23,185 nt of DNA from a virus. Where the stretch lies: the IMG/VR virus record IMGVR_UViG_3300037070_000562, positions 1 through 23,185 of that record; one strand, given 5' to 3'. A program made the translations under genes and the position numbers. Shown here piece by piece: positions 2,827-14,285 of the stretch (the stretch's first letter is position 1; each line of letters begins with the position of its first letter). A model generated the notes under the pieces. It did no database searches and was not told the origin of the DNA. It saw only the letters and a list, made by a program, of their open reading frames with translations.

Positions 2827-2848
2827 ACGATTCGGCAATCGATGAGTG

Positions 2849-2879
2849 GAGGCCACCTTCGGGTGGCCTCTTCTTTTTT
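2849..2879 (+). terminator. Intrinsic terminator-like hairpin ahead of protease-capsid gene
   Basis: A perfect 9-bp stem, GAGGCCACC (2849-2857) with GGTGGCCTC (2862-2870), closes a TTCG loop with a C-G closing pair, the extra-stable cUUCGg tetraloop. It is followed by TTCTTTTTT (2871-2879). This is a classic rho-independent terminator. The GGAG ribosome binding site of the next gene starts at the very next base (2880). Confidence 0.9.
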
Positions 2880-2889
2880 GGAGCAAGCA

Positions 2890-4893
2890 ATGACGACGAA
2901 CCGGACAATGCCGATTGCGACCCGCGCCTACAGCGTGCTCGAGATCAAGTCCTTCGACGAGGACACGCGCGCGTTCACGGGTGTCGCAACGACGCCCACG
3001 ACGGATCTCATGGAGGACGTCGTCGAGTCGAAAGGCGGGCAGTTCAAGCTGCCGATCCCGTTCCTGTGGCAGCACGACAAGGAACGCCCCGTCGGCCACA
3101 TCACCCACGCTCAAATCTCCGACAACGAGATCGCGGTGCGCGGACGGTTGGAACGTCCGTTTGAAGGCGCACCTGCCAGTTGGGCCGAGCGACTGAACGT
3201 AGCATGGGCCGACATCAAGACCGGGCTCGTCCGCGGGCTGTCCATCGGGTTCAAGCCGCTGGAATGGGAACCCATCAAGGGCACCTACGGCAATCGTTTC
3301 ACAAAATGGACATGGCTCGAGTTGAGCGCGGTCACGATTCCCGCCAACACCGATGCCTCGATTTTGACCATCAAGTCGATCGCTGCGCGTGAGGAGCAGG
3401 CCGCGTCAGGCCGCAATGCTGCCTCGCGAGTGGTACGACTCGATTCTCCTGCCGGCGTCACGGCAAAGCGCAGATCAATCACGCCCCAGGAGGGCAATGC
3501 GATGAATGTTTCAGACCAAATCAAGTCGTTTGAGGCGAAGCGGATGGCAACCGCTACGCAGCTCGACGTCCTGCTCGAGAAGGCGGCCGAAGAGGGCCGC
3601 ACGCTCGATGAGGCCGAGCAGAAAGAGCACGATGAGCTCGACGCCGACGTCGCGCGCATCGACCAGCACCTCGACAACCTGCACGCCGCCGAGGCGCGGC
3701 AGATGGCGCGGGCGAAGCCGGTGGAGAAGGGTGGTGTGGTGGCGGCATCGCGCTCGCGCGATCCCTACATCACGGCGGGTCGCGAGACGCTGCCACCGGG
3801 CGTGGAATTCGCCCGCTTCGTCAAGTGTGTGGTGGCCTCGCGCGGCATTCCGCTCGCGGCCTTTGAGGTGGCAAAGCACCAGTATCCGGACAATCCTCGC
3901 CTGCAGACGATCCTGAAGGCGGCGGTGGCGGCCGGTACGACCTCGGATGTGGCTTGGGCCTCGCCGCTGGTGGAGTATCAGCAGCTTGCGAGCGAGTTCA
4001 TCGACTTCCTGCGCCCGCAGACCATTCTCGGGAAGTTTGGCACCAACGGCATTCCGGCACTCAATGCGGTACCGTTCAACGTGCGTATTCCGAGGCAGAT
4101 GACGGGTGGACAGGGCTACTGGGTCGGACAGGGCAAGGCGAAGCCGCTGACGAAGTTCGACTTCGACAGTGTGACCTTCGACTTCTACAAGGTGGCGAAC
4201 ATCGCCGTGCTCACCGACGAGCTGGTGCGTTTCAGCAATCCGTCCGCGGATCTGCTGACCCGCAACTCCCTCGCCGCGGCGCTGCGCGCTCGGCTCGACA
4301 TCGACTTCATCGATCCGGGCAAGGCGATCGATGTGGGCGTCTCGCCCGCCTCGATCACCAACGGCATCACCGGTATCACCTCCAGTGGTACGGGTGCCGA
4401 TGGCATCTTCGCGGACCTCGAGGCGGTGATGGGTGCGTTTGCGGCGAGCGGTCTCGCCCCGAACGTGGCGATCATGTCCTCGATGAACGCGCTCGCGCTG
4501 TCGATGCTGCGCTATCCGCTCTCGGGTGCGCCCGTGTTCGGTGGCATGTCGGCACAGGGCGGGACGTTCAACGGACTGCCGGTGATCGTAAGCGAGTACG
4601 TGAGTCAGGTCGGCGAGACGGGATCGAGCCCGATCGTCTTCCTGAACACCAACGAGATCCTGCTCGCCGACGACGGCACGGTGACGATCGACGCATCCAA
4701 CCAGGCGTCTCTGGAAATGTCGGATGCACCGGCCCACAACTCGGGCACGCCCACGGGGGCGAGTCTGGTCAGCATGTGGCAGACGAACTCGGTCGCCCTG
4801 AAGGCCGAGCGGTACATCAACTGGCTGCGTGCCCGTGACGAAGCCGTGGTGTGGATCGATGGGGCGGCCTACACATCGGTGCCGTCGACGTAG
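2890..4893 (+). CDS. Fused HK97-type prohead protease and major capsid protein
   Basis: 667 residues joining two normally separate genes in one frame. Residues about 8-165 are a U35-type prohead protease: LWQHDKERPVGH contains the candidate catalytic His62, RGLSIGF the candidate nucleophile Ser118, and WLELSAVTIPAN the conserved block with Glu144. A linker (165-204) leads to a charged helical delta/scaffold-like segment (about 205-275). The HK97-fold capsid domain follows, with recognisable TSDVAWASPLVE, TGGQGYWVGQGKAKPLTKF and a C-terminal SVALKAERYINWLRARDEAVVWI. The protease should cleave the delta segment during maturation. ATG 2890 is chosen because GGAG lies 6 bases upstream. The in-frame ATG at 2842 would put the terminator hairpin inside the coding sequence. 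Terminator-like hairpins flank the gene on both sides. Confidence 0.95.
   Translation: MTTNRTMPIATRAYSVLEIKSFDEDTRAFTGVATTPTTDLMEDVVESKGGQFKLPIPFLWQHDKERPVGHITHAQISDNEIAVRGRLERPFEGAPASWAERLNVAWADIKTGLVRGLSIGFKPLEWEPIKGTYGNRFTKWTWLELSAVTIPANTDASILTIKSIAAREEQAASGRNAASRVVRLDSPAGVTAKRRSITPQEGNAMNVSDQIKSFEAKRMATATQLDVLLEKAAEEGRTLDEAEQKEHDELDADVARIDQHLDNLHAAEARQMARAKPVEKGGVVAASRSRDPYITAGRETLPPGVEFARFVKCVVASRGIPLAAFEVAKHQYPDNPRLQTILKAAVAAGTTSDVAWASPLVEYQQLASEFIDFLRPQTILGKFGTNGIPALNAVPFNVRIPRQMTGGQGYWVGQGKAKPLTKFDFDSVTFDFYKVANIAVLTDELVRFSNPSADLLTRNSLAAALRARLDIDFIDPGKAIDVGVSPASITNGITGITSSGTGADGIFADLEAVMGAFAASGLAPNVAIMSSMNALALSMLRYPLSGAPVFGGMSAQGGTFNGLPVIVSEYVSQVGETGSSPIVFLNTNEILLADDGTVTIDASNQASLEMSDAPAHNSGTPTGASLVSMWQTNSVALKAERYINWLRARDEAVVWIDGAAYTSVPST
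3488..3504 (+). promoter_or_regulatory. Internal ribosome binding site and start codon for capsid-only product
   Basis: AGGAGGG at 3488-3494 is followed after 7 bases by ATG 3502, in frame with the protease-capsid fusion (Met205). It falls exactly at the junction between the linker after the protease and the capsid delta segment. It is one of the best Shine-Dalgarno matches in the window. Confidence 0.65.
3502..4893 (+). CDS. Major capsid protein, predicted separate internal translation product
   Basis: 463 residues nested in frame in the fusion gene. The predicted product starts with a charged helical segment (MNVSDQIKSFEAKRM...), like the delta domain that acts as built-in scaffold in HK97-type capsids, and continues through the capsid fold. 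Separate initiation would supply many capsid subunits against few fused protease copies, a ratio assembly needs. The same result could come from proteolysis of the fusion alone, so this entry is a prediction based on the strong internal ribosome binding site and its position at the domain boundary. Its ATG lies 7 bases after AGGAGGG. Confidence 0.55.
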   Translation: MNVSDQIKSFEAKRMATATQLDVLLEKAAEEGRTLDEAEQKEHDELDADVARIDQHLDNLHAAEARQMARAKPVEKGGVVAASRSRDPYITAGRETLPPGVEFARFVKCVVASRGIPLAAFEVAKHQYPDNPRLQTILKAAVAAGTTSDVAWASPLVEYQQLASEFIDFLRPQTILGKFGTNGIPALNAVPFNVRIPRQMTGGQGYWVGQGKAKPLTKFDFDSVTFDFYKVANIAVLTDELVRFSNPSADLLTRNSLAAALRARLDIDFIDPGKAIDVGVSPASITNGITGITSSGTGADGIFADLEAVMGAFAASGLAPNVAIMSSMNALALSMLRYPLSGAPVFGGMSAQGGTFNGLPVIVSEYVSQVGETGSSPIVFLNTNEILLADDGTVTIDASNQASLEMSDAPAHNSGTPTGASLVSMWQTNSVALKAERYINWLRARDEAVVWIDGAAYTSVPST

Positions 4894-4900
4894 TAGACTT

Positions 4901-4945
4901 CCGGACGTGAACCACACGTACTCCCGTGCATGTGGTCGCAACCGG
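4901..4945 (+). other. Extended hairpin between capsid gene and terminator
   Basis: ACCACACGTAC (4911-4921) pairs with GTGCATGTGGT (4926-4936) around a TCCC loop. This gives 11 positions with one C-A mismatch and one G-T wobble. CCGG at 4901-4904 and 4942-4945 could form an outer stem. It begins 8 bases after the capsid stop and directly precedes the terminator. It may protect the 3' end of capsid mRNA or simply strengthen the stop. Confidence 0.5.
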
Positions 4946-4947
4946 AG

Positions 4948-4986
4948 ACCCCGGCGGGCGTAACAGCCCGTCGGGGTTTTCTTTTT
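4948..4986 (+). terminator. Intrinsic terminator after protease-capsid gene
   Basis: A 12-bp stem, ACCCCGGCGGGC (4948-4959) with GCCCGTCGGGGT (4966-4977), has one G-T wobble and a GTAACA loop. It is followed by TTTCTTTTT. The next gene's GGAG starts at 4987, right after the T tract, repeating the arrangement seen at 2849-2892. Confidence 0.92.
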
Positions 4987-4999
4987 GGAGAACACAGCC

Positions 5000-5185
5000 A
5001 TGCACTTGAAAGTCGTCCGCAACATCCGCGGGCTGGTGATGGGTCAGCGCCTGACGATGGACCGCTACTTCGGGCGCGCACTCGTCGCGCACGGCATCGC
5101 CGAGGAAGTGCTCGAGGGTGAGCAGCCGCGCAAGAAGCGCGCCTACAAGCGGCGCGACCTGCAAGCCGAGCAGAGCCGGGAATGA
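5000..5185 (+). CDS. Small basic protein between capsid and portal genes
   Basis: 61 residues from ATG 5000, with GGAG at 4987-4990 and a 9-base spacer. An in-frame TTG at 4985 is rejected because it overlaps the terminator tail. The N-terminal half (RNIRGLVMGQRLTMDRYFGR, then ALVAHGIAEE) resembles small phage proteins near capsid genes that have a short beta-hairpin followed by an A..L...G.A pattern. The C-terminal half is very basic (PRKKRAYKRRD) and could touch DNA or RNA. Its ATG-TGA junction overlaps the portal start by 4 bases. The function is unknown. A minor head protein is a reasonable guess from position. Confidence 0.75.
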   Translation: MHLKVVRNIRGLVMGQRLTMDRYFGRALVAHGIAEEVLEGEQPRKKRAYKRRDLQAEQSRE

Positions 5186-6615
5186 AACTCCCAAAGCTGC
5201 TGCAGTTCTTCACCCCGACCCAGCGCGACGCGCCAGTCGCGCAGCGCAAACTCCTGCACCCCATGAATGGGCGCGGTGGCGCCGGCTGGTTTCGTATCTA
5301 CGAGAGCTACAGCGGTGCCTGGCAGCAGAATGTCGTGCTCGACCGCGACACGATCCTCTCGCACTCGGTCGTCTTCGCCTGCATCACGCTCATCTCGCAG
5401 GACATCGGGAAACTGCGCTGCAAGCTGGTCGAGCAGCAGGAGAGCGGCATCTGGAAAGAGGTGCAGAACTCCGCCTATTCGCCCGTGCTGCGCAAACCCA
5501 ATCATTTCCAGACGCGCGTCAAGTTCTTTGAATACTGGATTGCGTCGAAGCTGATTCACGGCAACACCTATGTGCTGAAGCAGCGCGATGATCGCAACGT
5601 CGTCAAGAGGCTCTACATCCTCGATCCGACACGGGTGAGAGTGTTCGTCAGCGACGATGGGGCGGTGTTCTATGAACTGAAGATCGACAATCTCGCCAAC
5701 CTCGATGCGGTTGCCGGGCGGCGCGAGAACAACACGCTGATGGTGCCCGCACGCGAGATCATTCACGACCCGATGTCGCTGCTGTGTCATCCGTTGCTCG
5801 GTGTGTCACCGCTCACCGCCAACGGGCTCGCCGCACTGCAGGGCCTGCGAATCCAGCAGGGTTCGGCGGCGTTCTTTGCCAACGGGTCTACCCCCTCCGG
5901 CGTCATCACTGCACCGGGACATCTCGAGCAGGACGATGCCGATGAGATCAAGTCGGCATGGGACACCAACTACTCCGGTGCCAATGCTGGCAAGGTCGCG
6001 GTGCTCGGTGATGGGCTCAAGTTTGAGCAGATGGCGGTGAACTCGGTCGACGCGCAGCTCATCGAGCAACTCAAGTGGACCGGTGAGAACATCTGCACGG
6101 CATTTCATGTACCACCGTACATGGTGGGCATCGGTCCCATGCCGACCTATAACAACATCGAGGCGCTGAACCAGCAGTACTACAACCAGTGTCTGCAATC
6201 GCTGATCGAGAACCTGGAGCTGTCGCTCGACGAGGGCCTCGAGATGACGAGCCCGACGCTCAGTCTCGGCACGGAGTTCGACCTGAAGGGACTGCTGCGA
6301 ATGGACACCGCGACGCGCTACAAGGCGCACAGCGATGCGATCGGTGGCGGCTGGTTGACGCCCAATGAGGCGCGCATCGATGAGGATCTGCCGCCCGCGC
6401 AGGGCGGGGCGACGCCCTACATGCAGCAGCAGAATTTCTCCCTGCTGGCGCTGAACAAGCGCGATCAGAAGGACGATCCATTTGCGAGCGGTAGCAAGGC
6501 TCCGGCCACCCCGGCGCCACCCGCACCGCCCGAGAAGGACGATGAGGAGAAGAGTCTCACGCTCTTTGCGACCGAGCTGCGCAAGTCACTCTCCCTTGCC
6601 GTCCTGACAGGCTGA
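5182..6615 (+). CDS. Phage portal protein (HK97 gp3-like)
   Basis: 477 residues. It forms the dodecameric ring at the capsid vertex through which DNA enters and leaves and to which the neck attaches. Visible family hallmarks are SVVFACITLISQDIGKL near residues 62-78, an EYWIASKLIHGNTYVL block, HPLLGVSPLTAN at about 203, FFANGSTPSGVI, and FHVPPYMVG near 308. The length matches HK97-type portals. The C-terminal 50 residues are a Pro/Ala-rich and charged tail (TPAPPAPPEKDDEEK). It starts by ATGA overlap with the small basic gene, which suggests translational coupling. The gene lies after the capsid gene, whereas HK97 and gene transfer agents place it before the protease. Confidence 0.95.
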   Translation: MKLPKLLQFFTPTQRDAPVAQRKLLHPMNGRGGAGWFRIYESYSGAWQQNVVLDRDTILSHSVVFACITLISQDIGKLRCKLVEQQESGIWKEVQNSAYSPVLRKPNHFQTRVKFFEYWIASKLIHGNTYVLKQRDDRNVVKRLYILDPTRVRVFVSDDGAVFYELKIDNLANLDAVAGRRENNTLMVPAREIIHDPMSLLCHPLLGVSPLTANGLAALQGLRIQQGSAAFFANGSTPSGVITAPGHLEQDDADEIKSAWDTNYSGANAGKVAVLGDGLKFEQMAVNSVDAQLIEQLKWTGENICTAFHVPPYMVGIGPMPTYNNIEALNQQYYNQCLQSLIENLELSLDEGLEMTSPTLSLGTEFDLKGLLRMDTATRYKAHSDAIGGGWLTPNEARIDEDLPPAQGGATPYMQQQNFSLLALNKRDQKDDPFASGSKAPATPAPPAPPEKDDEEKSLTLFATELRKSLSLAVLTG

Positions 6616-6639
6616 AGTAGTGGTGGTGGTGCTCTCGGC

Positions 6640-7803
6640 ATGGACCGTCATCAATCAACGGAGGCATTGAACAACGTGGATATGCGGAACATGGCTGAGA
6701 TCGTTGCCAGTGCCGTCAAGGAGTACGTGGCGCTCGCCGTTGCGGAGCTCTCCGGGCGCGTCGGGCAGATCGAGAAAGCACCGCCACCGGTCGAAGCCGC
6801 GGTGATCAAGGCGCTGATCGAGGCGGAAGTGCAGGAGACGACCTCGGAGATGCGTGGGCAGTGGGACGCACAATTGAATACCGCAATCGCGGCACTGCCC
6901 CCGCCGACGGATCTCGCGCCGCTCGCTGAAACGGTGGCGCACATCGAGCAAAGACTGAGCGAGGCCACCACGCTGCAGATCGCGGACATACCAGAAGACC
7001 TGAAGGCACGGGTGAAGATCGATTACCTGAATCTGCAGAACCTTCACGAGCGTGTGATGACCATGGAGGCAAAGCCGATGCCGGTCGAGGGACCGCCCGG
7101 CGAGCGCGGACTGCAGGGGGAGCGGGGTGAGAAGGGCGAACCGGGGGATGCTGGTCCGCCCGGCGAAGTCGGTCCTGCGGGCGAGAGCGGGGCTCCCGGC
7201 GAGCGCGGTGAGAAGGGTGCCGACGGTCTGCCGGGTGTGCCGGGTGAGCGGGGTCCGGACGGCCAAGACGGTCGGGATGCGGTCGCCCTTGAGATCCTCG
7301 ACGGGGTCGACGAGACCCGCCGCTATCCACGGGGCACGGTGGTGACCTTCCGCGGCGGGCTGATTCGGGCGTTCCGACGCAGCGATCCGCTCGCCCCCGG
7401 CGTGGAACTCGAGCGGGCCGGCTGGCATGTAATCCTGAACGGCATTGCCGAGATGGCCTCCGAAGTACAGAACGAGCGCGAGTTCGTCCAGCGCACCGTG
7501 TTTACCAACGGCGCGGTGAACGAGGTCCGCACCCGCATGGCGATCCCGCTCTATCGAGGCATCTGGAAAAAGGGCGTGGACTATCACGCTGGCGACAGCG
7601 TCACCTACGGCGGCTCCAGCTTCATTGCGCAGCGCGACACGGTCGATGAGGAACCAGAGGCCAGCGATGCCTGGCGGCTCGCCGTCAAGCGCGGGCGCGA
7701 TGGCAAGAATGGCAAGGACGGCAACAAGGGCGAGCCGGGCGTGCAAGGCGAGCGCGGCCGAGACCTCACACAACGCGACTACACGACAGGACGGCGATTC
7801 TGA
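6640..7803 (+). CDS. Collagen-like virion protein with carbohydrate-binding-like module
   Basis: 387 residues. The N-terminal 145 residues are helical and probably form a trimeric coiled coil. Then come 21 uninterrupted Gly-X-Y triplets at 151-213, rich in GER, GEK and GEP, and a folded region to about 300. [18 protein letters not shown]...GSSFIAQ...W block at about 305-347 resembles chitin-binding type 5/12 modules of phage proteins. Eight more triplets lie at 352-375. Collagen-like stretches in phages form rigid trimeric rods in fibres. The position between portal and connector suggests a head or neck fibre rather than a tail fibre. The start is uncertain: ATG 6640 has a weak leader, while ACGGAGG at 6658-6664 favours in-frame GTG 6676. 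Confidence 0.85.
7090..7278 (+). repeat. Collagen-like Gly-X-Y repeat, 21 triplets
   Basis: Codes for 21 consecutive Gly-X-Y triplets. Charged GER/GEK triplets are common; they are known to stabilise bacterial collagens that lack hydroxyproline. Confidence 0.92.
7693..7764 (+). repeat. Second collagen-like Gly-X-Y repeat, 8 triplets
   Basis: Codes for [24 protein letters not shown] near the C-terminus, separated from the first block by a folded region of about 140 residues. Confidence 0.88.
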
Positions 7804-8147
7804 TGGTCATGCTAGTCAGTCTGGATCAGGCGAAGTTGAGCCTGCGTCTCGATCACGATGCCGACAACGAGCGGGTCGAGGAAGAGATTCACGATGCCTC
7901 TGCGATCGTGCTCACGCACCTGAAGGACCGCGCGTTGCTGCTGGTCGACACCTCCGGTGAAATCCTCTCCGATTCCACCGGCACCATCGAGATTCCGCGC
8001 GACATCCAGCGCGCCACACTCGCGATGGTGAAGATCCTGCATGAGAGCAATGCGGGCGACGGGCAGCGGATGGGCTGGAACGAAGGGTTCCTGCCGGATG
8101 AAGTGCGCGCGTTGCTGTTTCCGCACCGGATGCCAACCGTCGCATGA
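7803..8147 (+). CDS. Head-tail connector protein (gp6-like)
   Basis: 114 residues. The mostly helical protein starts [19 protein letters not shown] and has the D..L...I..A...V pattern (NERVEEEIHDASAIVLTHL), then PRDIQRATLAMVKILHE. This is the usual shape of the gp6-like adaptor that binds below the portal and begins the neck. A short C-terminal LPDEVRALLFPHR tail ends it, as in homologues where the last residues fix the LL..YR motif. The start overlaps the collagen-like gene by one base (TGATG). A second in-frame ATG lies two codons in. Confidence comes from both pattern and position. Confidence 0.85.
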   Translation: MVMLVSLDQAKLSLRLDHDADNERVEEEIHDASAIVLTHLKDRALLLVDTSGEILSDSTGTIEIPRDIQRATLAMVKILHESNAGDGQRMGWNEGFLPDEVRALLFPHRMPTVA

Positions 8148-8512
8148 ACACCGCCAATATGGGCACGGGCGATCTCAACCGGGTGGTTGACATCGAAGAG
8201 AAGACGCTCGTGCAGAACACGATCACGGGAGCCAAGACTCCCACTTGGAGCGTATTGTGGAGCGACGTCCCGGCCAACATCGATTTTCGCACTGGAAAGG
8301 AGTACATCGCCGCACAGGCAGTCCAGTCCGAAATAACCTGCTTCATCACCATCCGCTACCGGGACGGATTACGGCCCGCACACCGCATCGTGCAAAAGGC
8401 AACGGAGCGGCGCAGCCGAAAAGTGTTCAATATCCGCGGCATCATCCCCGACTCCAAAAGCGGCCTCGAGTGGCTGACGATGCCGTGCTCCGAGGGCGTA
8501 GATCAGGGGTAA
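8144..8512 (+). CDS. Phage head-tail joining protein (head closure)
   Basis: 122 residues in the Phage_H_T_join/SPP1 gp16-like family. It forms the ring that closes the filled head and accepts the tail. Visible markers are LNRVVDIEEKTLVQN, W..LWSDVPANIDFRTGKEYIAA, the central I.IRYRDGLRPAHRI, and the C-terminal FNIRGIIPDSKSGLEWL, all typical of this beta-rich family. It starts by ATGA overlap with the connector gene. Its 3' end overlaps the most likely start of the next, unrelated gene by 28 bases. That junction marks the left edge of the five-gene insertion. Confidence 0.9.
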   Translation: MNTANMGTGDLNRVVDIEEKTLVQNTITGAKTPTWSVLWSDVPANIDFRTGKEYIAAQAVQSEITCFITIRYRDGLRPAHRIVQKATERRSRKVFNIRGIIPDSKSGLEWLTMPCSEGVDQG

Positions 8513-9147
8513 GCGCCACCGTCGCGCCGGAGTGGCGTGGCGAGACGGTGGCGATTCTCGCGGCGGGTCCCTCGCTTACCCGCGAGCAGGCAGAGCAGGT
8601 GCGCGGTCGCTGCCGGGTGATCGCGGTCAACAACACCGCGATCGACACGGAGGTAGACGGTGTCCTGCAACTGGCTTTTGCACCGTGGGCAGACGTGCTA
8701 TACGCGGCCGATGCGAAGTGGTGGCACTGCTACAAGGATCGTGCGCTGGCATTCGCAGGGCTCAAGTACACGATCTCGGCGATTCCGTTTCCTGAAGTAC
8801 TTCGGTTGCAGCGTTCGCACCAGAGAGCCTTCGATGAGCGCCCGACGCACCTCTGCGGATCGAACAGCGGCTACCACGCGCTGCACCTGGCGGTGCATTT
8901 CGGGGCGGCGCGCGTTCTGCTGCTCGGCTTCGATATGAAGAATGGCATCAACGGTCGGCGCCACTACTTCGGCAATCACCCAAAGCGATTGAATGCCCGG
9001 CCGGCGTTTCCGACGTGGATCAACCAGTTTGCGAAGCTCGCGCCGGAACTCGCCAAGCGGCGCATCGAGGTTGTGAACTGCAGCCCGAGCACGGCATTGT
9101 TTGCGTTCCGGCGGGCAAGTCTGACGACGGTACTAAATGCCCAATGA
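8485..9147 (+). CDS. DUF115/MptE-like protein, possible glycosyltransferase fold
   Basis: 220 residues from GTG 8485. It has a Rossmann-like layout: VAILAAGPSLT at 22-32 (GPS loop), VIAVNNTAI, ADVLYAADAKWW at 69-80, GSNSGYHALHLAV at 125-137, and ARVLLLGFDM at 142-151, then HYFGNHP. These are the marks of the DUF115/6-hydroxymethylpterin pyrophosphokinase MptE-like group, which shares its pattern with GT42 sialyltransferases (GPS near the start, SG..A..A...G...I.L.G.D later). Phage members are often annotated with no function. The start is unsettled: GTG 8485 has a poor ribosome binding site and overlaps the upstream gene, but the PEWRGETV lead-in argues against starting later. The substrate is unknown. 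Confidence 0.75.
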   Translation: MLRGRRSGVSATVAPEWRGETVAILAAGPSLTREQAEQVRGRCRVIAVNNTAIDTEVDGVLQLAFAPWADVLYAADAKWWHCYKDRALAFAGLKYTISAIPFPEVLRLQRSHQRAFDERPTHLCGSNSGYHALHLAVHFGAARVLLLGFDMKNGINGRRHYFGNHPKRLNARPAFPTWINQFAKLAPELAKRRIEVVNCSPSTALFAFRRASLTTVLNAQ

Positions 9148-9736
9148 CTTAGGACAGCGCGCCTCGCTCGCCTACCGCAACGCACGGGCTGAGATCGAGG
9201 CAGGGCAAGTGCCAGATAAGTATCGGCGTCTGCTGCCGTACATTCAGGGCCAGCGGGTGCTAGAGATCGGTGCGGCGGAAGGCGTGCTCGGACTGCTGCT
9301 GTCACGCGAGGGCCAAGTCGAGCGAGTGACGGCGCTCGAGCTGCGCGAAGACCGGCACCGGGAGGGTCAGCGCCTGCAGCGGGTCTGGGCGGAGCGCGGC
9401 TTCGATGTAAGCCGCTGCCTGATGGTACAGGGCGACATCCGCGAGCACCTGCACCTGCTCGAGGTCACCGATACGCTGGTGGCGGTGCGCTCGATCTATT
9501 ATCTGCGCGCGGAAGCACAGTCAGTTATGGAGGTGGCTGCGCGTCGGGTGCGTCGCGTGGTGTTGTGCGGCAACGCTGGCCGGCAAGCCCAGTACCGCTC
9601 GCAGCCGAGCAGTGAGCTCGGTCGGTTCAATTACCTGGCCGCCATCGATGGCATGAAATGGCTGTTGACGGGCGCGGGTTATCAGATCGCCGCGGTGATC
9701 AGTAGTGGCGATCCTATCGTGGTGGGCATCCAATGA
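9137..9736 (+). CDS. Class I SAM-dependent methyltransferase
   Basis: 199 residues. VLEIGAAEGVLGLLL (motif I) at 41-55 and the acidic strand end TALEL (E68) form the S-adenosylmethionine pocket, and VQGDI near 97-101 fits the adenine-contacting loop. VAVRSIYYL at 116-123 is a plausible motif IV region without the NPPY of amino-DNA methyltransferases, so DNA is not an obvious substrate. It resembles small-molecule or sugar methyltransferases more, but I cannot name the target. It starts 11 bases inside the upstream gene and is followed by an ATGA overlap, so all five genes of this cassette look co-translated. Confidence 0.8.
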   Translation: MPNDLGQRASLAYRNARAEIEAGQVPDKYRRLLPYIQGQRVLEIGAAEGVLGLLLSREGQVERVTALELREDRHREGQRLQRVWAERGFDVSRCLMVQGDIREHLHLLEVTDTLVAVRSIYYLRAEAQSVMEVAARRVRRVVLCGNAGRQAQYRSQPSSELGRFNYLAAIDGMKWLLTGAGYQIAAVISSGDPIVVGIQ

Positions 9737-11097
9737 CGGTCGTCTTGCGAGTCTCGCCGCAGGACGTGACGCACAAGCTCTCGTGCGATCTCTTTGAGAC
9801 CGAGGCGGCGGAGTGGGGCGATAAGACCTACATGCCGATCGAGCAGACGATCAAGCACCGCTCGATCGTCGCTCGTTACGTCGAGGGGCGCGCGTGGGAG
9901 GAGACGGAACTGTTCACCAACATCTACACGCGCCGCTTCGCGGCCGGCGAGCATGTGCGCGGCTGCTCGACGATGGCGGGATTGCTGCAGCAGTACCGCA
10001 CACGGGTCGATCACATGTACGCCGACATGCAGAAGCACGGGTATCGCGACGACGCCGATGACCTGATCCCGGTGGTGATCGCACCCGACGGGACGCTCAC
10101 GCTTGGCAACCAGGGCAACCACCGGCTCGCCATTGCCAAGGTGCTCAACATCCCGAAAATCGCCGTCAGGGTGTGCGGCCGACTCGACTCAATCCGCTGC
10201 CCGGTGGAACCGGCGACGTTCCAACCGGTGCTGCACGACGGAGCACGGGAGATCCCGGCGATGACCACGCCGGCCGAGCGGGTGGCGTACTACGAACTGG
10301 CGAAAGCGCAGGCGGCGCTCGGCGCGGTCGTCGAACTCGGCACTTGGCTCGGGGCGGCGACGGTGTTCATGGCGGCCGGTGTGCGTGATGCGGACACTCG
10401 CCGCCCAATGCACTCCTACGACCGCTTCAAGTGGAAGCCGATCCATGAGTACAAGGCGGGGCATCCGCTGCGCTGCTCGATGATCGAGCAGGTGAAGCGC
10501 AACTTGGGTCCGCTCGCCGCGCTGGTGCAGCTGCACAAGATCGAGATCACCGACGCGAAGTGGCTGGGCGGGCCGATCGGGCTGCTGGTGGCGGACGGAC
10601 CGAAGCACGCGGGAGACGTGGTGCGCACGCTCGGGATCTTCGGACCCGAGCTTGTCGTCGGCAGTTGTACGGCGTGGCAGGATTTTGCGTACTTCCCGGC
10701 TTACGAGCTGCCGGTGTGCTTTGAGCGACTCGAGCAGGCGGGCGTGGTGTCATTTGTGCGCGGCGTGTTTCCCGGCACCACTGCTGTGTTGCGCATTGAG
10801 AAACACATCAGTCGCAAGCTCGCACACTCCATCAAGGTGAGTGACATCAAGACGACCGAGATCCTGCCGATCTGGGAAAAGTGGAGCGCGCGGCTGCCCG
10901 AGGAGATGCGCCCGCGGTTCATGTGTGGAGCGGCGCTCTTTCTGCACGACCGTGGCGAGCAGGCGCAGGCGGCCGCACTCTTCAAGGCGCTGCTCGCGGA
11001 GTACACCGAGGACATCGCATCGAAGTGGGAATACTTCAAGAACAAGAAACCGGAGATGCTGCGGCGCTATCCGGCCATCGCGGCCGAATTGTCATGA
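9733..11097 (+). CDS. ParB-like domain fused to TylF-like methyltransferase
   Basis: 454 residues. The N-terminal part (about 50-150) runs WEETELFTN..., then IPVVIAPDGTLTLGNQGNHRLAIAKVLNIPKIAVRV, with GNQGNHRLAIA at 125-135 matching the G.HR.AIA core of ParB/sulfiredoxin-like folds. From about 180 a class I methyltransferase follows: VVELGTWLGAATVFMAAG at 199-216, SYDRFKW with D230, and LLVADGPKHAGDV at 284-296, close to the TylF/CmcI and Methyltransf_24 sugar-methyltransferase pattern. The last 80 residues are helical, ending in a possible TPR-like pair (AALFLHDRGEQAQAAALFKAL). ParB-like domains of this WE...lf type also occur in surface-polysaccharide clusters, which fits a glycan role better than plasmid partition. 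It starts by ATGA overlap. Confidence 0.72.
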   Translation: MTVVLRVSPQDVTHKLSCDLFETEAAEWGDKTYMPIEQTIKHRSIVARYVEGRAWEETELFTNIYTRRFAAGEHVRGCSTMAGLLQQYRTRVDHMYADMQKHGYRDDADDLIPVVIAPDGTLTLGNQGNHRLAIAKVLNIPKIAVRVCGRLDSIRCPVEPATFQPVLHDGAREIPAMTTPAERVAYYELAKAQAALGAVVELGTWLGAATVFMAAGVRDADTRRPMHSYDRFKWKPIHEYKAGHPLRCSMIEQVKRNLGPLAALVQLHKIEITDAKWLGGPIGLLVADGPKHAGDVVRTLGIFGPELVVGSCTAWQDFAYFPAYELPVCFERLEQAGVVSFVRGVFPGTTAVLRIEKHISRKLAHSIKVSDIKTTEILPIWEKWSARLPEEMRPRFMCGAALFLHDRGEQAQAAALFKALLAEYTEDIASKWEYFKNKKPEMLRRYPAIAAELS

Positions 11098-11834
11098 TGC
11101 TCACCCCGGAGGAACTGGCCGAGCTGCCGCCGAAGGCGAGGCGTGACTTGGAGATCGTCGATCTCTATCTCGAGCACGACTACCTCACCGCGTATGCGCT
11201 GCACACCGCGCAACGGATTGTGCATGAAGGGTACGAGGCCGCGGCAGGGGCGGATGCGAGCCGTGACAACTGGGACAGCCACGGCAACCTGCAGCGGGAT
11301 TTCCTGCTCAACATGGGGCTGCAGCCGCACCACCGGCTGCTCGAGGTCGGCTGTGGGGCGGGACGGCTTGCACGCAAGATCGTGCCGTACCTCGGACGCG
11401 GGCAGTATCACGGCGTCGACCTTTCGGAGGCGGCTGTTGAATCAGCCATTGAATTGTCGGTCAGCGAAGGCTGGAGTCACCACGATCCGCAGTTCTATGT
11501 CGGGCAGGTCGCGGATCTCCGGGCCGGCTCTTTCCAATTCGCTTGGGCGCACTCGGTTACCACGCATTTACCACCGACACTGATCACAAATCTCTTTTCC
11601 CAGGTGGCAGCCGCGATGGTCGGCAATGGGGTCTTCTACTGGACGTACCTGCCCGCGGAGCGTGACGAGCGATACGGGCTGACGCAGTTCCGTACCACGG
11701 TGGCGACGCTGCGCAGGTGCGCCGAGGATGCGGGGCTCACCTTTGACGAGGTGCCCGACTGGGTGCGGCTTGCTGGCTACAAGCCCGGTCGCTGGAGCTA
11801 CGGGCAAAGCATTGCGGTGAGCCGGCGTGCATAA
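11094..11834 (+). CDS. Class I SAM-dependent methyltransferase
   Basis: 246 residues from ATG 11094 (a second ATG follows directly). Motif I is LLEVGCGAGRLARKI at 82-96 and the ribose-binding acid lies in YHGVDLS (D109). A conserved FAWAHSVTTHLP at 149-160 fits the motif IV region of Methyltransf_11/25 types, followed by NGVFYWTYLP. The N-terminal 60 residues are helical and may cap the active site. No DNA-methyltransferase NPPY/DPPY motif is present, so a small molecule or sugar is the more likely acceptor. The start overlaps the ParB-methyltransferase stop by four bases, and its 3' end overlaps the glycosyltransferase by eight. Confidence 0.85.
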   Translation: MMLTPEELAELPPKARRDLEIVDLYLEHDYLTAYALHTAQRIVHEGYEAAAGADASRDNWDSHGNLQRDFLLNMGLQPHHRLLEVGCGAGRLARKIVPYLGRGQYHGVDLSEAAVESAIELSVSEGWSHHDPQFYVGQVADLRAGSFQFAWAHSVTTHLPPTLITNLFSQVAAAMVGNGVFYWTYLPAERDERYGLTQFRTTVATLRRCAEDAGLTFDEVPDWVRLAGYKPGRWSYGQSIAVSRRA

Positions 11835-12573
11835 GCTGACGGTCGCGTGCTGGAAGTGGCGTTCTGCGCCCGGCTATCGCTCGACCTTCACCGCGCAGCA
11901 TGTCAACACGCTGCGCAGCATGGTGGCGCGGCATTACGCGAAGCCGCACGATTTTGTCTGTATCACGGATGATCCGGCCGGCATCGACGGGGATGTCCGG
12001 ATCGTTCCAATCTGGGACGACCACAAGAATCTCCGCGGGCCGAATGGGGTCAACTGCTATCGTCGTTTGAAGGCGTTCTCGGTGGAAGCAGCGGATCTCA
12101 TCGGCCCACGGTTCGTCTCACTGGATCTGGATGCGGTCGTCACGGACGATCTGACACCACTGTGGGACCGGCCGGAAGAGTTCGTCATCTGGGGCGATAC
12201 CGCGCGCGGCACGCCGTACAACGGCAGCATGTTCCTGCTGACCGCAGGCACGCGCACGCGCGTCTGGGAGACGTTCGATCCGCAGAAGTCGCCGGCCGCC
12301 GCCAAAGCGCGCGGCTACATCGGCAGCGACCAAGCGTGGATCGGCGCGTGTCTCGGTCCGCACGAGCGCAAGTGGTCGATACTCGACGGCGTGTATTCGT
12401 ACCGGGTACACATTGCGCAGGAACTGAGGAACTCACGCTTTGAGCGACCGCCGCCGGGTCGTCCGCACATCCTGCCCGGCAACGCGCGCATTGTCCTCTT
12501 TCATGGCCGGCACGACCCGTGGCATCCGCAAGTCCAGAAATTGAATCCGTGGATTACGGACCATTGGAGATAA
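11827..12573 (+). CDS. Glycosyltransferase-like protein (GT-A type, DxD motif)
   Basis: 248 residues starting at GTG 11827. VACWKW and FVCITDD at the N-terminus, FVSLDLDAVVTDDL with the DLD metal/nucleotide motif at 100-102, YNGSMFLL at 131-138, IGSDQAW at 165-171 and a late VLFHGRHDPW at 223-232 follow the order seen in GT8-like transferases (donor pocket, DxD, acceptor loop, final metal-binding His). It should move a sugar from a nucleotide donor, but donor and acceptor cannot be read from sequence. It closes the five-gene cassette; the next gene returns to tail morphogenesis six bases later. Confidence 0.85.
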   Translation: MHKLTVACWKWRSAPGYRSTFTAQHVNTLRSMVARHYAKPHDFVCITDDPAGIDGDVRIVPIWDDHKNLRGPNGVNCYRRLKAFSVEAADLIGPRFVSLDLDAVVTDDLTPLWDRPEEFVIWGDTARGTPYNGSMFLLTAGTRTRVWETFDPQKSPAAAKARGYIGSDQAWIGACLGPHERKWSILDGVYSYRVHIAQELRNSRFERPPPGRPHILPGNARIVLFHGRHDPWHPQVQKLNPWITDHWR

Positions 12574-12579
12574 GCACTA

Positions 12580-13140
12580 ATGGCTAAGGTTTCCTTTGAG
12601 GTCGAGATGAAGCAGAGCGGATTGCCGCAGCTCATCAATACGCTCAAGGACTTCCCCGACCGTTTCCAGCAGAAGATCGTGCGGCGTGCCGCACGCCGAG
12701 GCATGAACATCGTCCGCGACGCGGCCCGAACGAAAGCGAAAGCGATCGACGATCCGGCCACGCCGAAGCGGAAAATCTTCAAGAACATCGTCACCAACGA
12801 ATCGGCGCGGCGCGGTCGCGCCATTGGCGGCATCGTGATGAAGGTCGGTGTGCGCGGTGGCGCACTCGCCTATCCATTGATGACCCACGGGCGCGGTGCG
12901 CCGTTTCAGCCACGCCGCAAGCCGCGGGCGAGCGCGAAACCGCCGTCGCCGCATCCCGGTGGCGACACCCGCTACTGGCGGCACCAGGAATTCGGCTGGC
13001 GGCATGTGGGCGGAAAGCACGTCGTCGGACGCAAGTTCATGCTGCAGGCACTGATTGAGAACTCGCAAAAGGTTGCCGACAAGATCGTCCAAGAGATCAA
13101 CATCGGGCTCGACACGCTTTTCAAGGGAGGCCCGCCATGA
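12580..13140 (+). CDS. HK97 gp10-like neck/tail protein
   Basis: 186 residues. The pattern MAKVSFEVEM...GLPQLINTLKDFPDRFQQKIVRRAARRGMNIV is typical of the HK97 gp10 family, small neck or tail-completion proteins that work between the head-tail joining protein and the tail terminator. The C-terminal GRKFMLQALIENSQKVADKIV helix fits the family's F..PA....... end. The middle (about 105-130) is a basic Pro-rich loop (PRRKPRASAKPPSPHPGG), which makes it longer than many relatives. GGAG at 12566-12569 gives a 10-base spacer to ATG 12580. It is followed by an ATGA overlap. Confidence 0.86.
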   Translation: MAKVSFEVEMKQSGLPQLINTLKDFPDRFQQKIVRRAARRGMNIVRDAARTKAKAIDDPATPKRKIFKNIVTNESARRGRAIGGIVMKVGVRGGALAYPLMTHGRGAPFQPRRKPRASAKPPSPHPGGDTRYWRHQEFGWRHVGGKHVVGRKFMLQALIENSQKVADKIVQEINIGLDTLFKGGPP

Positions 13141-13526
13141 TTGGCGTACCGCCGATCTACGAACTCTGCGATGTCGACACGGGTGTGCAAGCCGTGCTGG
13201 GCGGTCCTGATGGCCTGCGCGTGTATCCATTCGGGCATGTGCCGCAGGACAACCCGCCCGAGCCGCGACCGTATGCTGTGTGGCGACGGACGTATGGGGC
13301 ACCCGAGAACACGCTTGGCTGCCCGCCCGATATGGATTACGTCGGCATCGAGGTAATCTGTGTCGGCGATCCGGACACCTGCCGGGAGGCGCACGATGCG
13401 ATCATTCTGGCGATCGAAAGTCACTGTCATGTGGTCGGCCTTGATGACGAGGGGCGCGATCCGGACACGGATGATTACTGGTGTTCGTTCACGGCCGACT
13501 GGTTTGTATCGCGCAACGGAACATGA
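13137..13526 (+). CDS. Probable tail terminator/completion protein (DUF3168-like)
   Basis: 129 residues. The sequence starts PPIYELCDVDTGVQAVLG, then RVYPFGHVPQDNPPEPRPYAVWRRT, the usual I...L..d..v..ll......riyp...pq....PyvvY pattern of DUF3168/gp17-like tail completion proteins. A central V.CVGD...C.E...AI..AIE resembles the helix that packs onto the tube end. This ring caps the tail tube and docks it to the head. It lies between the gp10-like and tail tube genes, the standard place, and starts by ATGA overlap. The cysteine count (5) is unusual for the family. Confidence 0.8.
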   Translation: MIGVPPIYELCDVDTGVQAVLGGPDGLRVYPFGHVPQDNPPEPRPYAVWRRTYGAPENTLGCPPDMDYVGIEVICVGDPDTCREAHDAIILAIESHCHVVGLDDEGRDPDTDDYWCSFTADWFVSRNGT

Positions 13527-13699
13527 AACCGTACACCTATCGGTTTCACTTCGCGGTGATACGCGCGCTGCGCGGCGTACTCACGGCATGGGAGAAGTGG
13601 GTGGAAGCGGACCATCTGGCGGGCTTGCCAGAGGGTACGCCTGAAGAGGTGATGAAGCTGCTGACGCCGGAACAGCGTCGACCAGACAAGCCACAATAG
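13523..13699 (+). CDS. Small hypothetical protein
   Basis: 58 residues from ATG 13523, starting by ATGA overlap with the tail terminator gene. The overlap and the absence of a better start upstream make it a likely real gene. The first half (FHFAVIRALRGVLTAWEKWVE) could form an amphipathic helix, and the rest is charged and Pro-rich. I see no motif and do not recognise a family. Position suggests a tail-assembly accessory role. Confidence 0.6.
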   Translation: MKPYTYRFHFAVIRALRGVLTAWEKWVEADHLAGLPEGTPEEVMKLLTPEQRRPDKPQ

Positions 13700-13817
13700 T
13701 TTTTAACACTGCCTCGCTCCGTGCCTCGCGCATCTGCGCCGCGCACACATGGCCTCGCAGGAAACAACCTCTGACTGCTCGTAGGCGGTCTGTTTTCCTT
13801 TTCTGGAGGATTGAGCA
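13700..13817 (+). promoter_or_regulatory. Intergenic leader of tail tube gene with GCCTCGC repeats
   Basis: No gene fits here. GCCTCGC occurs three times (13711-13717, 13723-13729, 13752-13758). GCGCATCTGCGC at 13728-13739 is a short inverted repeat. A hairpin with a T tract and a GGAGG ribosome binding site complete the leader. I see no convincing promoter. Confidence 0.5.
13773..13802 (+). terminator. Weak terminator-like hairpin ahead of tail tube gene
   Basis: GACTGCT (13773-13779) pairs with GGCGGTC (13784-13790) around CGTA. The 7-bp stem has two G-T wobbles and is followed by a broken T tract (TGTTTTCCTTTT). The tail tube GGAGG starts at 13805. It is weaker than the hairpins at 2849 and 4948 but set out the same way. 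Confidence 0.5.
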
Positions 13818-14285
13818 ATGGCTGTAAAAACCCAAGGCACCGAACTTTATTTCATCGACCCCGATTCAACCGAGGTCGTGAAGATCGGCTGCCCGACGAC
13901 GATCACCGGCATCGGCGCTGCGCGCGACCAGATCGAGACCACCTGTCTCGATTCGGAAGGCCGCACGTACGAAGCCGGCATGCCGACGCCCGGCACGGCG
14001 AACTTCACCATTCAGGCGGACCCGGCTGATCCGAGCCACATCCGTCTGCATGAGTTGTACCGCGAGGGGACGACACTCGACTTTGCGCTCGGCTGGTCGG
14101 ACGGCACTGGCATCGTACCGACGGCGGATTCGTCGGGATTCACCCTGCCGACGACGCGGTCGTGGATCAGTTTCACCGGGTACGTCACGGACTTCCCGTT
14201 CGACTTTGCACTGAACTCGGTCGTGACATCGAATCTGGGAATCCAGGTGTCCGACTTCCCGCATTGGATTCCCAAGTCGACCTAG
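13818..14285 (+). CDS. Major tail tube protein
   Basis: 155 residues with GGAGG at 13805-13809 and an 8-base spacer, one of the strongest start regions in the window, as expected for a protein needed in hundreds of copies. The order fits: after the tail terminator and before the G/G-T chaperones. The sequence is beta-rich with the tube-family marks GTELYFIDPDST at the start, a C.DSEGRTYEAGMPTPGTANFTI region, and a late SWISFTGYVTDFPFD. It has no C-terminal Ig-like extension, unlike lambda V. It resembles the short tube proteins of many alphaproteobacterial siphophages. Confidence 0.87.
   Translation: MAVKTQGTELYFIDPDSTEVVKIGCPTTITGIGAARDQIETTCLDSEGRTYEAGMPTPGTANFTIQADPADPSHIRLHELYREGTTLDFALGWSDGTGIVPTADSSGFTLPTTRSWISFTGYVTDFPFDFALNSVVTSNLGIQVSDFPHWIPKST

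Follow-up and report, generated by a model that had tools for sequence, protein, structure and literature searches.

How does a phage make hundreds of copies of its capsid and tube proteins, and few of the neighbouring proteins, from one late transcript? This old question is raised by a stretch of 23,185 nucleotides (nt), positions 1 to 23,185 of the IMG/VR virus record IMGVR_UViG_3300037070_000562, part of an uncultivated phage, nearly identical to the beginning of a contig of 58,968 bases and referred to here as the window. At three sites a hairpin and T tract end 0-2 bases before the GGAG or GGAGG of the next gene, with the ATG shortly after, an order that an original prediction had reported and that the coordinates bear out. 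The third site, before the tail-tube gene, had been described as a terminator-like hairpin. The hairpin is there, but the main feature was missed: it is inserted inside a conserved, structured leader beside a micro-open reading frame (micro-ORF). We consider it rather probable, judging from predicted folds and their conservation, that site 3 forms the inside of a bistable leader controlling translation of the tail-tube gene, probably bound in trans by a micro-protein. Both the leader family and the micro-protein are apparently undescribed, with no match in the collections of RNAs, protein families and phages that were searched. The evidence throughout is computational and kinship among the sequences raises some of the counts.

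Structured leader of the tail-tube gene

The whole leader occupies positions 13709-13809 of the window, with the site 3 hairpin inside it and the micro-ORF preceding it. The features are as follows.

13523 to 13699, plus strand: micro-ORF of 58 amino acids, MKPYTYRFHFAVIRALRGVLTAWEKWVEAD..., overlapping the upstream gene at its 3' end (ATGA); E 3.5e-11
13709 to 13763, plus strand: structured leader element; helix P1 (CUGC 13709-13712 / GCAG 13757-13760), CUC/CUC 3x3 loop, P2, P3, second 3x3 loop, P4
13753 to 13764, plus strand: switching strand CCUC(G)CAGGAAA, which pairs with the P1 5' strand or with 13799-13809
13773 to 13802, plus strand: site 3; stem 13773-13790, T-rich to about 13802, between the structured element and the Shine-Dalgarno (SD) sequence
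13799 to 13809, plus strand: UUUUCUGGAGG, U tract and SD, the sequestered partner strand; probability of pairing to the element strand 0.98 in full-length RNA
13818 to 14285, plus strand: major tail-tube gene behind the site 3 leader; PF16460, PHROG 158, lambda-type tail tube

At 13709-13763 the sequence follows the pattern CUGC-CUC-GC...GC-CUC-GCAG. The architecture shared by the leaders runs from P1 through a 3x3 pyrimidine loop, a GC/GC pair and an A-rich bulge to P3, in many cases with a second 3x3 loop. The element was first noticed upstream of the tail-tube genes of relatives; a pattern search then located it in 48 viral stretches as well as in Burkholderiales genomes, where it occurs in prophages of Delftia, Comamonas, Variovorax, Acidovorax and Pseudorhodoferax. 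A covariance model gives 48.6 bits on the window (E 9.7e-14). Covariation is present in P3 and P4; among 35 sequences, 9 of the 15 element pairs are changed on both sides (0.31 compared to 0.09 when shuffled). The genes that follow encode tail tubes of two Pfam families, PF16460 and PF08813. One contig, G006, carries two elements, one preceding a major capsid gene (PF09950) and the other a KPP10_Orf10 virion gene (PF11681).

A search of Rfam 15 at gathering and relaxed thresholds placed the element in no family above the gathering score, and the sub-threshold matches were taken as chance. Matches of the R1 model to L199-L201 and G004:C12 were also judged, from sequence context, to be chance. 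A pattern in which P1 was left free and CCUCG kept found no P1 variants; these came solely from the micro-ORF search, which is independent of the RNA. A second copy of the element is noted at 11547-11603 of L202, a contig with a PF09950 capsid, and has no adjoining micro-ORF.

A predicted alternative fold concealing the ribosome site

The U tract and SD (UUUCUGRAGGC) find a complement in the 3' strand of the element (GCCUCGCAGAAA). In element-bearing cassettes the complementarity to the SD has a mean z-score of -3.2 and is significant in 39 of 46, whereas tail-tube cassettes that have the hairpin but lack the element give z 0.0 (P 2.5e-7 between the groups). The native strand pairs better than arms swapped between phages, and this is the case both for leaders of the window class and for the divergent class.

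The predicted folds depend on how much of the RNA has been made. With the last 18 nt removed, to represent the nascent RNA, P1 has a probability above 0.5 in 43 of the 46; at full length all 46 adopt the SD-closed fold, with a median gap of 9.2 kcal/mol. In the window the probability of P1 falls from 0.97 for RNA ending at 13772 to 0.01 for RNA extending to 13817, at which point the SD is 94-98% paired to the element strand. The defining parts of a bistable leader, two mutually exclusive helices with a strand in common, of which one hides the SD, are found in these predicted folds. Covariation is found for both helices, in P1 from rows trimmed by structure and in the SD strand from the comparison of native with swapped arms.

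The micro-ORF

A six-frame comparison of the phages that carry the element, made in search of shared genes and a trans-acting factor, revealed no family of at least 60 residues common to all. The top candidate led to the micro-ORF, positioned directly upstream of the element. The consensus is M..ATKELHETLIRL.KG...AWEKWL..Q and the length about 30 residues in relatives, usually 30-35, compared to 58 in the window. Across 29 sequences eight residues never change: T, H, R, G, A, W, E and W. Differences at the three codon positions number 6.0, 3.8 and 11.1 per 22 codons, which indicates selection on the micro-protein.

Comparison of the micro-protein with Pfam, PHROGs and NCBIfam gave nothing below E 0.28. 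The window-class consensus, used in tblastn, found no match in phages, a divergent query found only matches of E 3, and the consensus has no match in plasmid records. The micro-ORF is absent from seven control phages that lack the element. Among 299 bacterial genomes, a sample of the Delftia family, it is present in five and the element is present in all five.

Leaders identified from the micro-ORF

Searches with the micro-ORF, in which the RNA was not used, gave 159 and 175 viral stretches; 80 were kept from each, providing 83 distinct leaders. A strict architecture, defined as P1 of at least four pairs, the 3x3 loop and GC/GC, is observed in 69 of the 83 leaders behind a micro-ORF compared to 1.7% of dinucleotide shuffles, and in none of 35 tail-tube leaders without the element. 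It is also observed in 31 of the 41 leaders that lack the CUGCC motif. P1 occurs as CUGC/GCAG, CCAAG/CUUGG, CCGAG/CUCGG, CCGGG/CCCGG and CUACCAGG/CCUGGUAG. In divergent members all five P1 pairs are changed on both sides (0.58 compared to 0.19, a value reached in 0 of 500 shuffles), a count that is biased towards structure as the rows were trimmed by structure. The SD changes in step with the P1 strand, as in CUCCUUG/CAAGGAG and CUCCUC/GAGGAG, and SD complementarity is significant in 14 of 18 divergent leaders. The genes behind the leaders encode major tail proteins (PHROG 158, 584, 1407 and 10528) and major heads (PHROG 212 and 264), with PHROG 290 also represented.

In most divergent leaders P1 and the SD are not separated by a terminator hairpin, and termination is accordingly not what these leaders chiefly do. 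This bears on the proposal that the three hairpins are attenuators. That they are not ordinary operon ends stands, as described below, but attenuation is unlikely to be the central role of the leader family.

Sites 1 and 2 and the hairpin cassette

How do the other two sites compare? They, and a second structured stretch, are located as follows.

2848 to 2883, plus strand: site 1; stem 2849-2857/2862-2870, UUCG loop, T tract 2871-2879, GGAG 2880-2883
4900 to 4946, plus strand: second structured stretch, a long stem-loop closed by CCGG, directly upstream of site 2
4944 to 4990, plus strand: site 2; GC hairpin of 16 pairs 4944-4981, T tract to 4986, GGAG 4987-4990

A GC-rich hairpin running straight into a T tract, the mark of an intrinsic terminator, is present at all three sites, strong at sites 1 and 2 and weak at site 3. 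Sites 1 and 2 are the top two terminator-like hairpins on the plus strand of the window and lie above shuffles, for which 2.25 hairpins per strand are expected at a score of at least 15 and 0.83 at a score of at least 18. Taken alone as a terminator, site 3 scores 16.5, which is chance strength. The description of the first two as textbook terminators and of the third as weaker is therefore upheld. The loosest scan of the window found 13 hairpins where 12.6 are expected, overall not above chance, so that the meaning of the hairpins rests on position and conservation.

The structure at site 1 has a z-score of -3.87 and the ATG of the protease-capsid gene is at 2890. An in-frame ATG at 2842, immediately 5' of the hairpin, extends the ORF and offers a start that spans the hairpin; the SD-preceded ATG at 2890 was taken as the start. 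At site 2 the ATG is at 5000, and at site 3 GGAGG occupies 13805-13809 and the tail-tube ATG is at 13818. With respect to the genes named earlier, the first is a protease-capsid fusion (PHROG 617; PF04586 and PF05065) and the third a tail tube, both as proposed. The product of the second, a basic protein of 61 residues, has a single, marginal PHROG match, to a family of unknown function. Sites 1 and 2, inspected by eye for the switch, display no complementarity to the SD, and a search of the window for micro-ORFs found only the one. The stem-loop at 4900-4946 has a z-score of -4.0 alone and -6.8 together with the site 2 hairpin. It has no Rfam match above the gathering score and is unrelated to the element at site 3.

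The original prediction had suggested looking for the same order in related genomes. Relatives of the tail tube were gathered from viral contigs by protein similarity alone, giving 50 tail-tube loci, and a cassette was counted when a hairpin and T tract lay 6-45 nt before the start, the genes being called with fixed starts. The order is indeed found there, before 29 of the 50 tail-tube genes but only 6 of 293 other co-directional genes in the same loci (Fisher P 6.5e-23). From the end of the stem to the ATG is mostly 21-29 nt in tail-tube cassettes. The same order occurs 5' of capsid genes in six loci (L004, L005, L042, L210, L225 and L226). It occurs also in isolated phages, before the capsid gene of JLK-2012, before the capsid gene and another late gene of BgManors32, and before the tail tubes of Medea1, AUS531phi, Aval and VarioGold. 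Such recurrence before major virion genes agrees with the earlier argument that these are not ordinary operon ends. A terminator just 3' of the capsid gene, followed by a small protein, recurs in relatives and matches site 2. Tandem terminators are positioned immediately 5' of the tail-tube SD in L063 (2891-3000) and in L092, L093, L096 and L099 (upstream of 3001), and these five phages lack the switch element. Sites 1 and 2 represent a simpler, widespread form in which hairpin, T tract and SD are maximally packed before virion genes, without the switch. They remain terminator-like and may serve in attenuation, in stabilizing 3' or 5' ends or as a U-rich translation enhancer.

Proposed mechanism and alternatives

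During transcription the leader would fold into state A, with P1 and the 3x3 pyrimidine loops formed, and the ribosome site, once made, would be accessible. On completion of the RNA the P1 3' strand would change partner to the U tract and SD, giving state B with the ribosome site hidden. State A is presumably on and state B off in the cell. The conserved loops, the GC/GC pair and the A-rich bulge are all features of state A, and the likeliest regulator is therefore one that would bind and hold this state and switch translation on. The best candidate is the micro-protein of about 30 residues encoded just upstream, acting in trans. The reasons are that it accompanies the element at almost every locus, that selection acts on its coding sequence, that both its tail and its distance to the element vary, and that one contig carries two elements but only one micro-ORF. 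The terminator-like hairpin inside switches of the window class may add partial attenuation of transcription. A broader proposal, which we regard as possible and hold only tentatively, is of a two-part module: the trans-acting micro-protein and the bistable leader would set the timing and strength of translation of the tail tube or capsid, the virion proteins made in greatest abundance, and the cassette would be exchanged between unrelated phages.

Several points weigh against the bistable leader and its proposed ligand. The complementarity to the SD in the window itself is ordinary with respect to shuffles (z -0.5), although the full RNA still folds SD-closed, and the case for the switch rests on the family. 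Some AT-rich members (L466 and L487) have weak SD pairing. Thermodynamic folding is no proof of states in the cell, and RNA binding by the micro-protein is something we infer. In L371, at about 2090-2245, the micro-ORF and a CCGGG/CCCGG leader precede the terminase large subunit and not a major virion gene.

Might the micro-ORF rather be a leader peptide acting in cis, with the finishing ribosome covering the P1 5' strand and so deciding the fold? The synteny is strict in nearly all loci and the stop codon lies mostly 8-20 nt from P1, yet we think this unlikely. The distance ranges from 4 to 58 nt, with an additional hairpin intervening in L177, L370 and L376, and the tail after AWExW varies from 4 to 18 residues and reaches 32 in the window, a variability that argues against a fixed ribosome-stalling geometry. 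In addition, the amino-acid sequence is conserved and G006 has one micro-ORF for its two elements. We also doubt that the hairpin and T tract act as an attenuator at which transcription ends unless a late regulator or a put-like RNA element modifies RNA polymerase. The textbook terminators at sites 1 and 2, the paired terminators that precede the tail-tube genes of L063, L092, L093 and L096, and the specificity of the hairpins for virion genes would suit such antitermination. However, the divergent leaders mostly dispense with the hairpin, the switching helix engages the SD and not the terminator arms, and the six-frame comparison found no antiterminator-like family common to all element phages.

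Phage RNase III signals are long stems with an internal loop, and state B has this form. It might then be a processing signal, with the hairpins guarding RNA ends and raising the level of capsid and tube mRNA, but the conserved P1, 3x3 loops and micro-ORF would be left unexplained, the stem length varies and a cut would land in or beside the SD; we regard this explanation as improbable. At sites 1 and 2, and for hairpin cassettes generally, a hairpin bordering the ribosome footprint, a U-rich tract that binds S1 and a strong SD might together enhance translation. The 21-29 nt typical of tail-tube cassettes fits this, but tandem full terminators and unbroken T runs resemble real terminators and the idea is somewhat unlikely. 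The bistable leader remains our preferred reading of site 3.

Comparison with known systems

Sequestration of the SD is the means by which translational riboswitches and ribosomal-protein leaders act. The leader resembles them in having an aptamer-like domain and a P1 3' strand with two alternative partners, the P1 5' strand and the SD, but differs in that it precedes phage virion genes, adjoins a micro-ORF, lacks a known ligand and carries, in members of the window class, a terminator-like hairpin inside the switch. Alternative structures, one of which hides the ribosome site, are also formed by the lambda cIII mRNA and the leader of the MS2 maturation gene, where folding kinetics count. These too are phage mRNAs with a fold that masks the ribosome site, but their architecture is different and here the element recurs, with a conserved micro-ORF, before unrelated virion genes. 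The leader-peptide attenuators trpL and tnaC share with the leader a short ORF with a conserved Trp just 5' of alternative RNA folds. The variable distance and C-terminal length, the conserved peptide and a second element without an ORF set the leader apart from them and point to a peptide acting in trans. In HK022 put and lambda N-boxB, both antitermination systems, the second with a short RNA-binding peptide, N, a phage RNA element also lies beside a terminator; here, in contrast, the element precedes individual virion genes and would control SD pairing, and the terminator is mostly missing in divergent members. The Rfam motif mu-gpT-DE, found near a capsid gene, is likewise a structured RNA tied to a major phage head gene, but the element described here matched no Rfam family above the gathering score.

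Promoterless, terminator-like hairpins inside late operons are an unexplained observation. In SPP1 stem-loop terminators are reported to bound the late-gene clusters with no consensus late promoter (PMC6316719), which is the same puzzle; the passages concerned describe neither a switch nor a micro-ORF. The presence at exactly such genes, in many uncultivated phages and in prophages, of a conserved RNA switch accompanied by a micro-ORF makes the question of copy number directly testable. A micro-protein that proved to be the ligand would rank as a very small RNA-binding regulator and offer a compact part for gene control.

Other features of the window

ARAGORN places a tRNA-Gly(ccc) at 10191-10283 on the minus strand, within a plus strand gene, and this may be spurious. 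Between the terminase and the capsid gene there is an ORF of 192 residues, rich in proline and glycine (2248-2826), without a Pfam or PHROG match. Positions 6640-7803 encode a portal-like protein (PHROG 1289), one stretch of which matches collagen-like and tail-fibre families.

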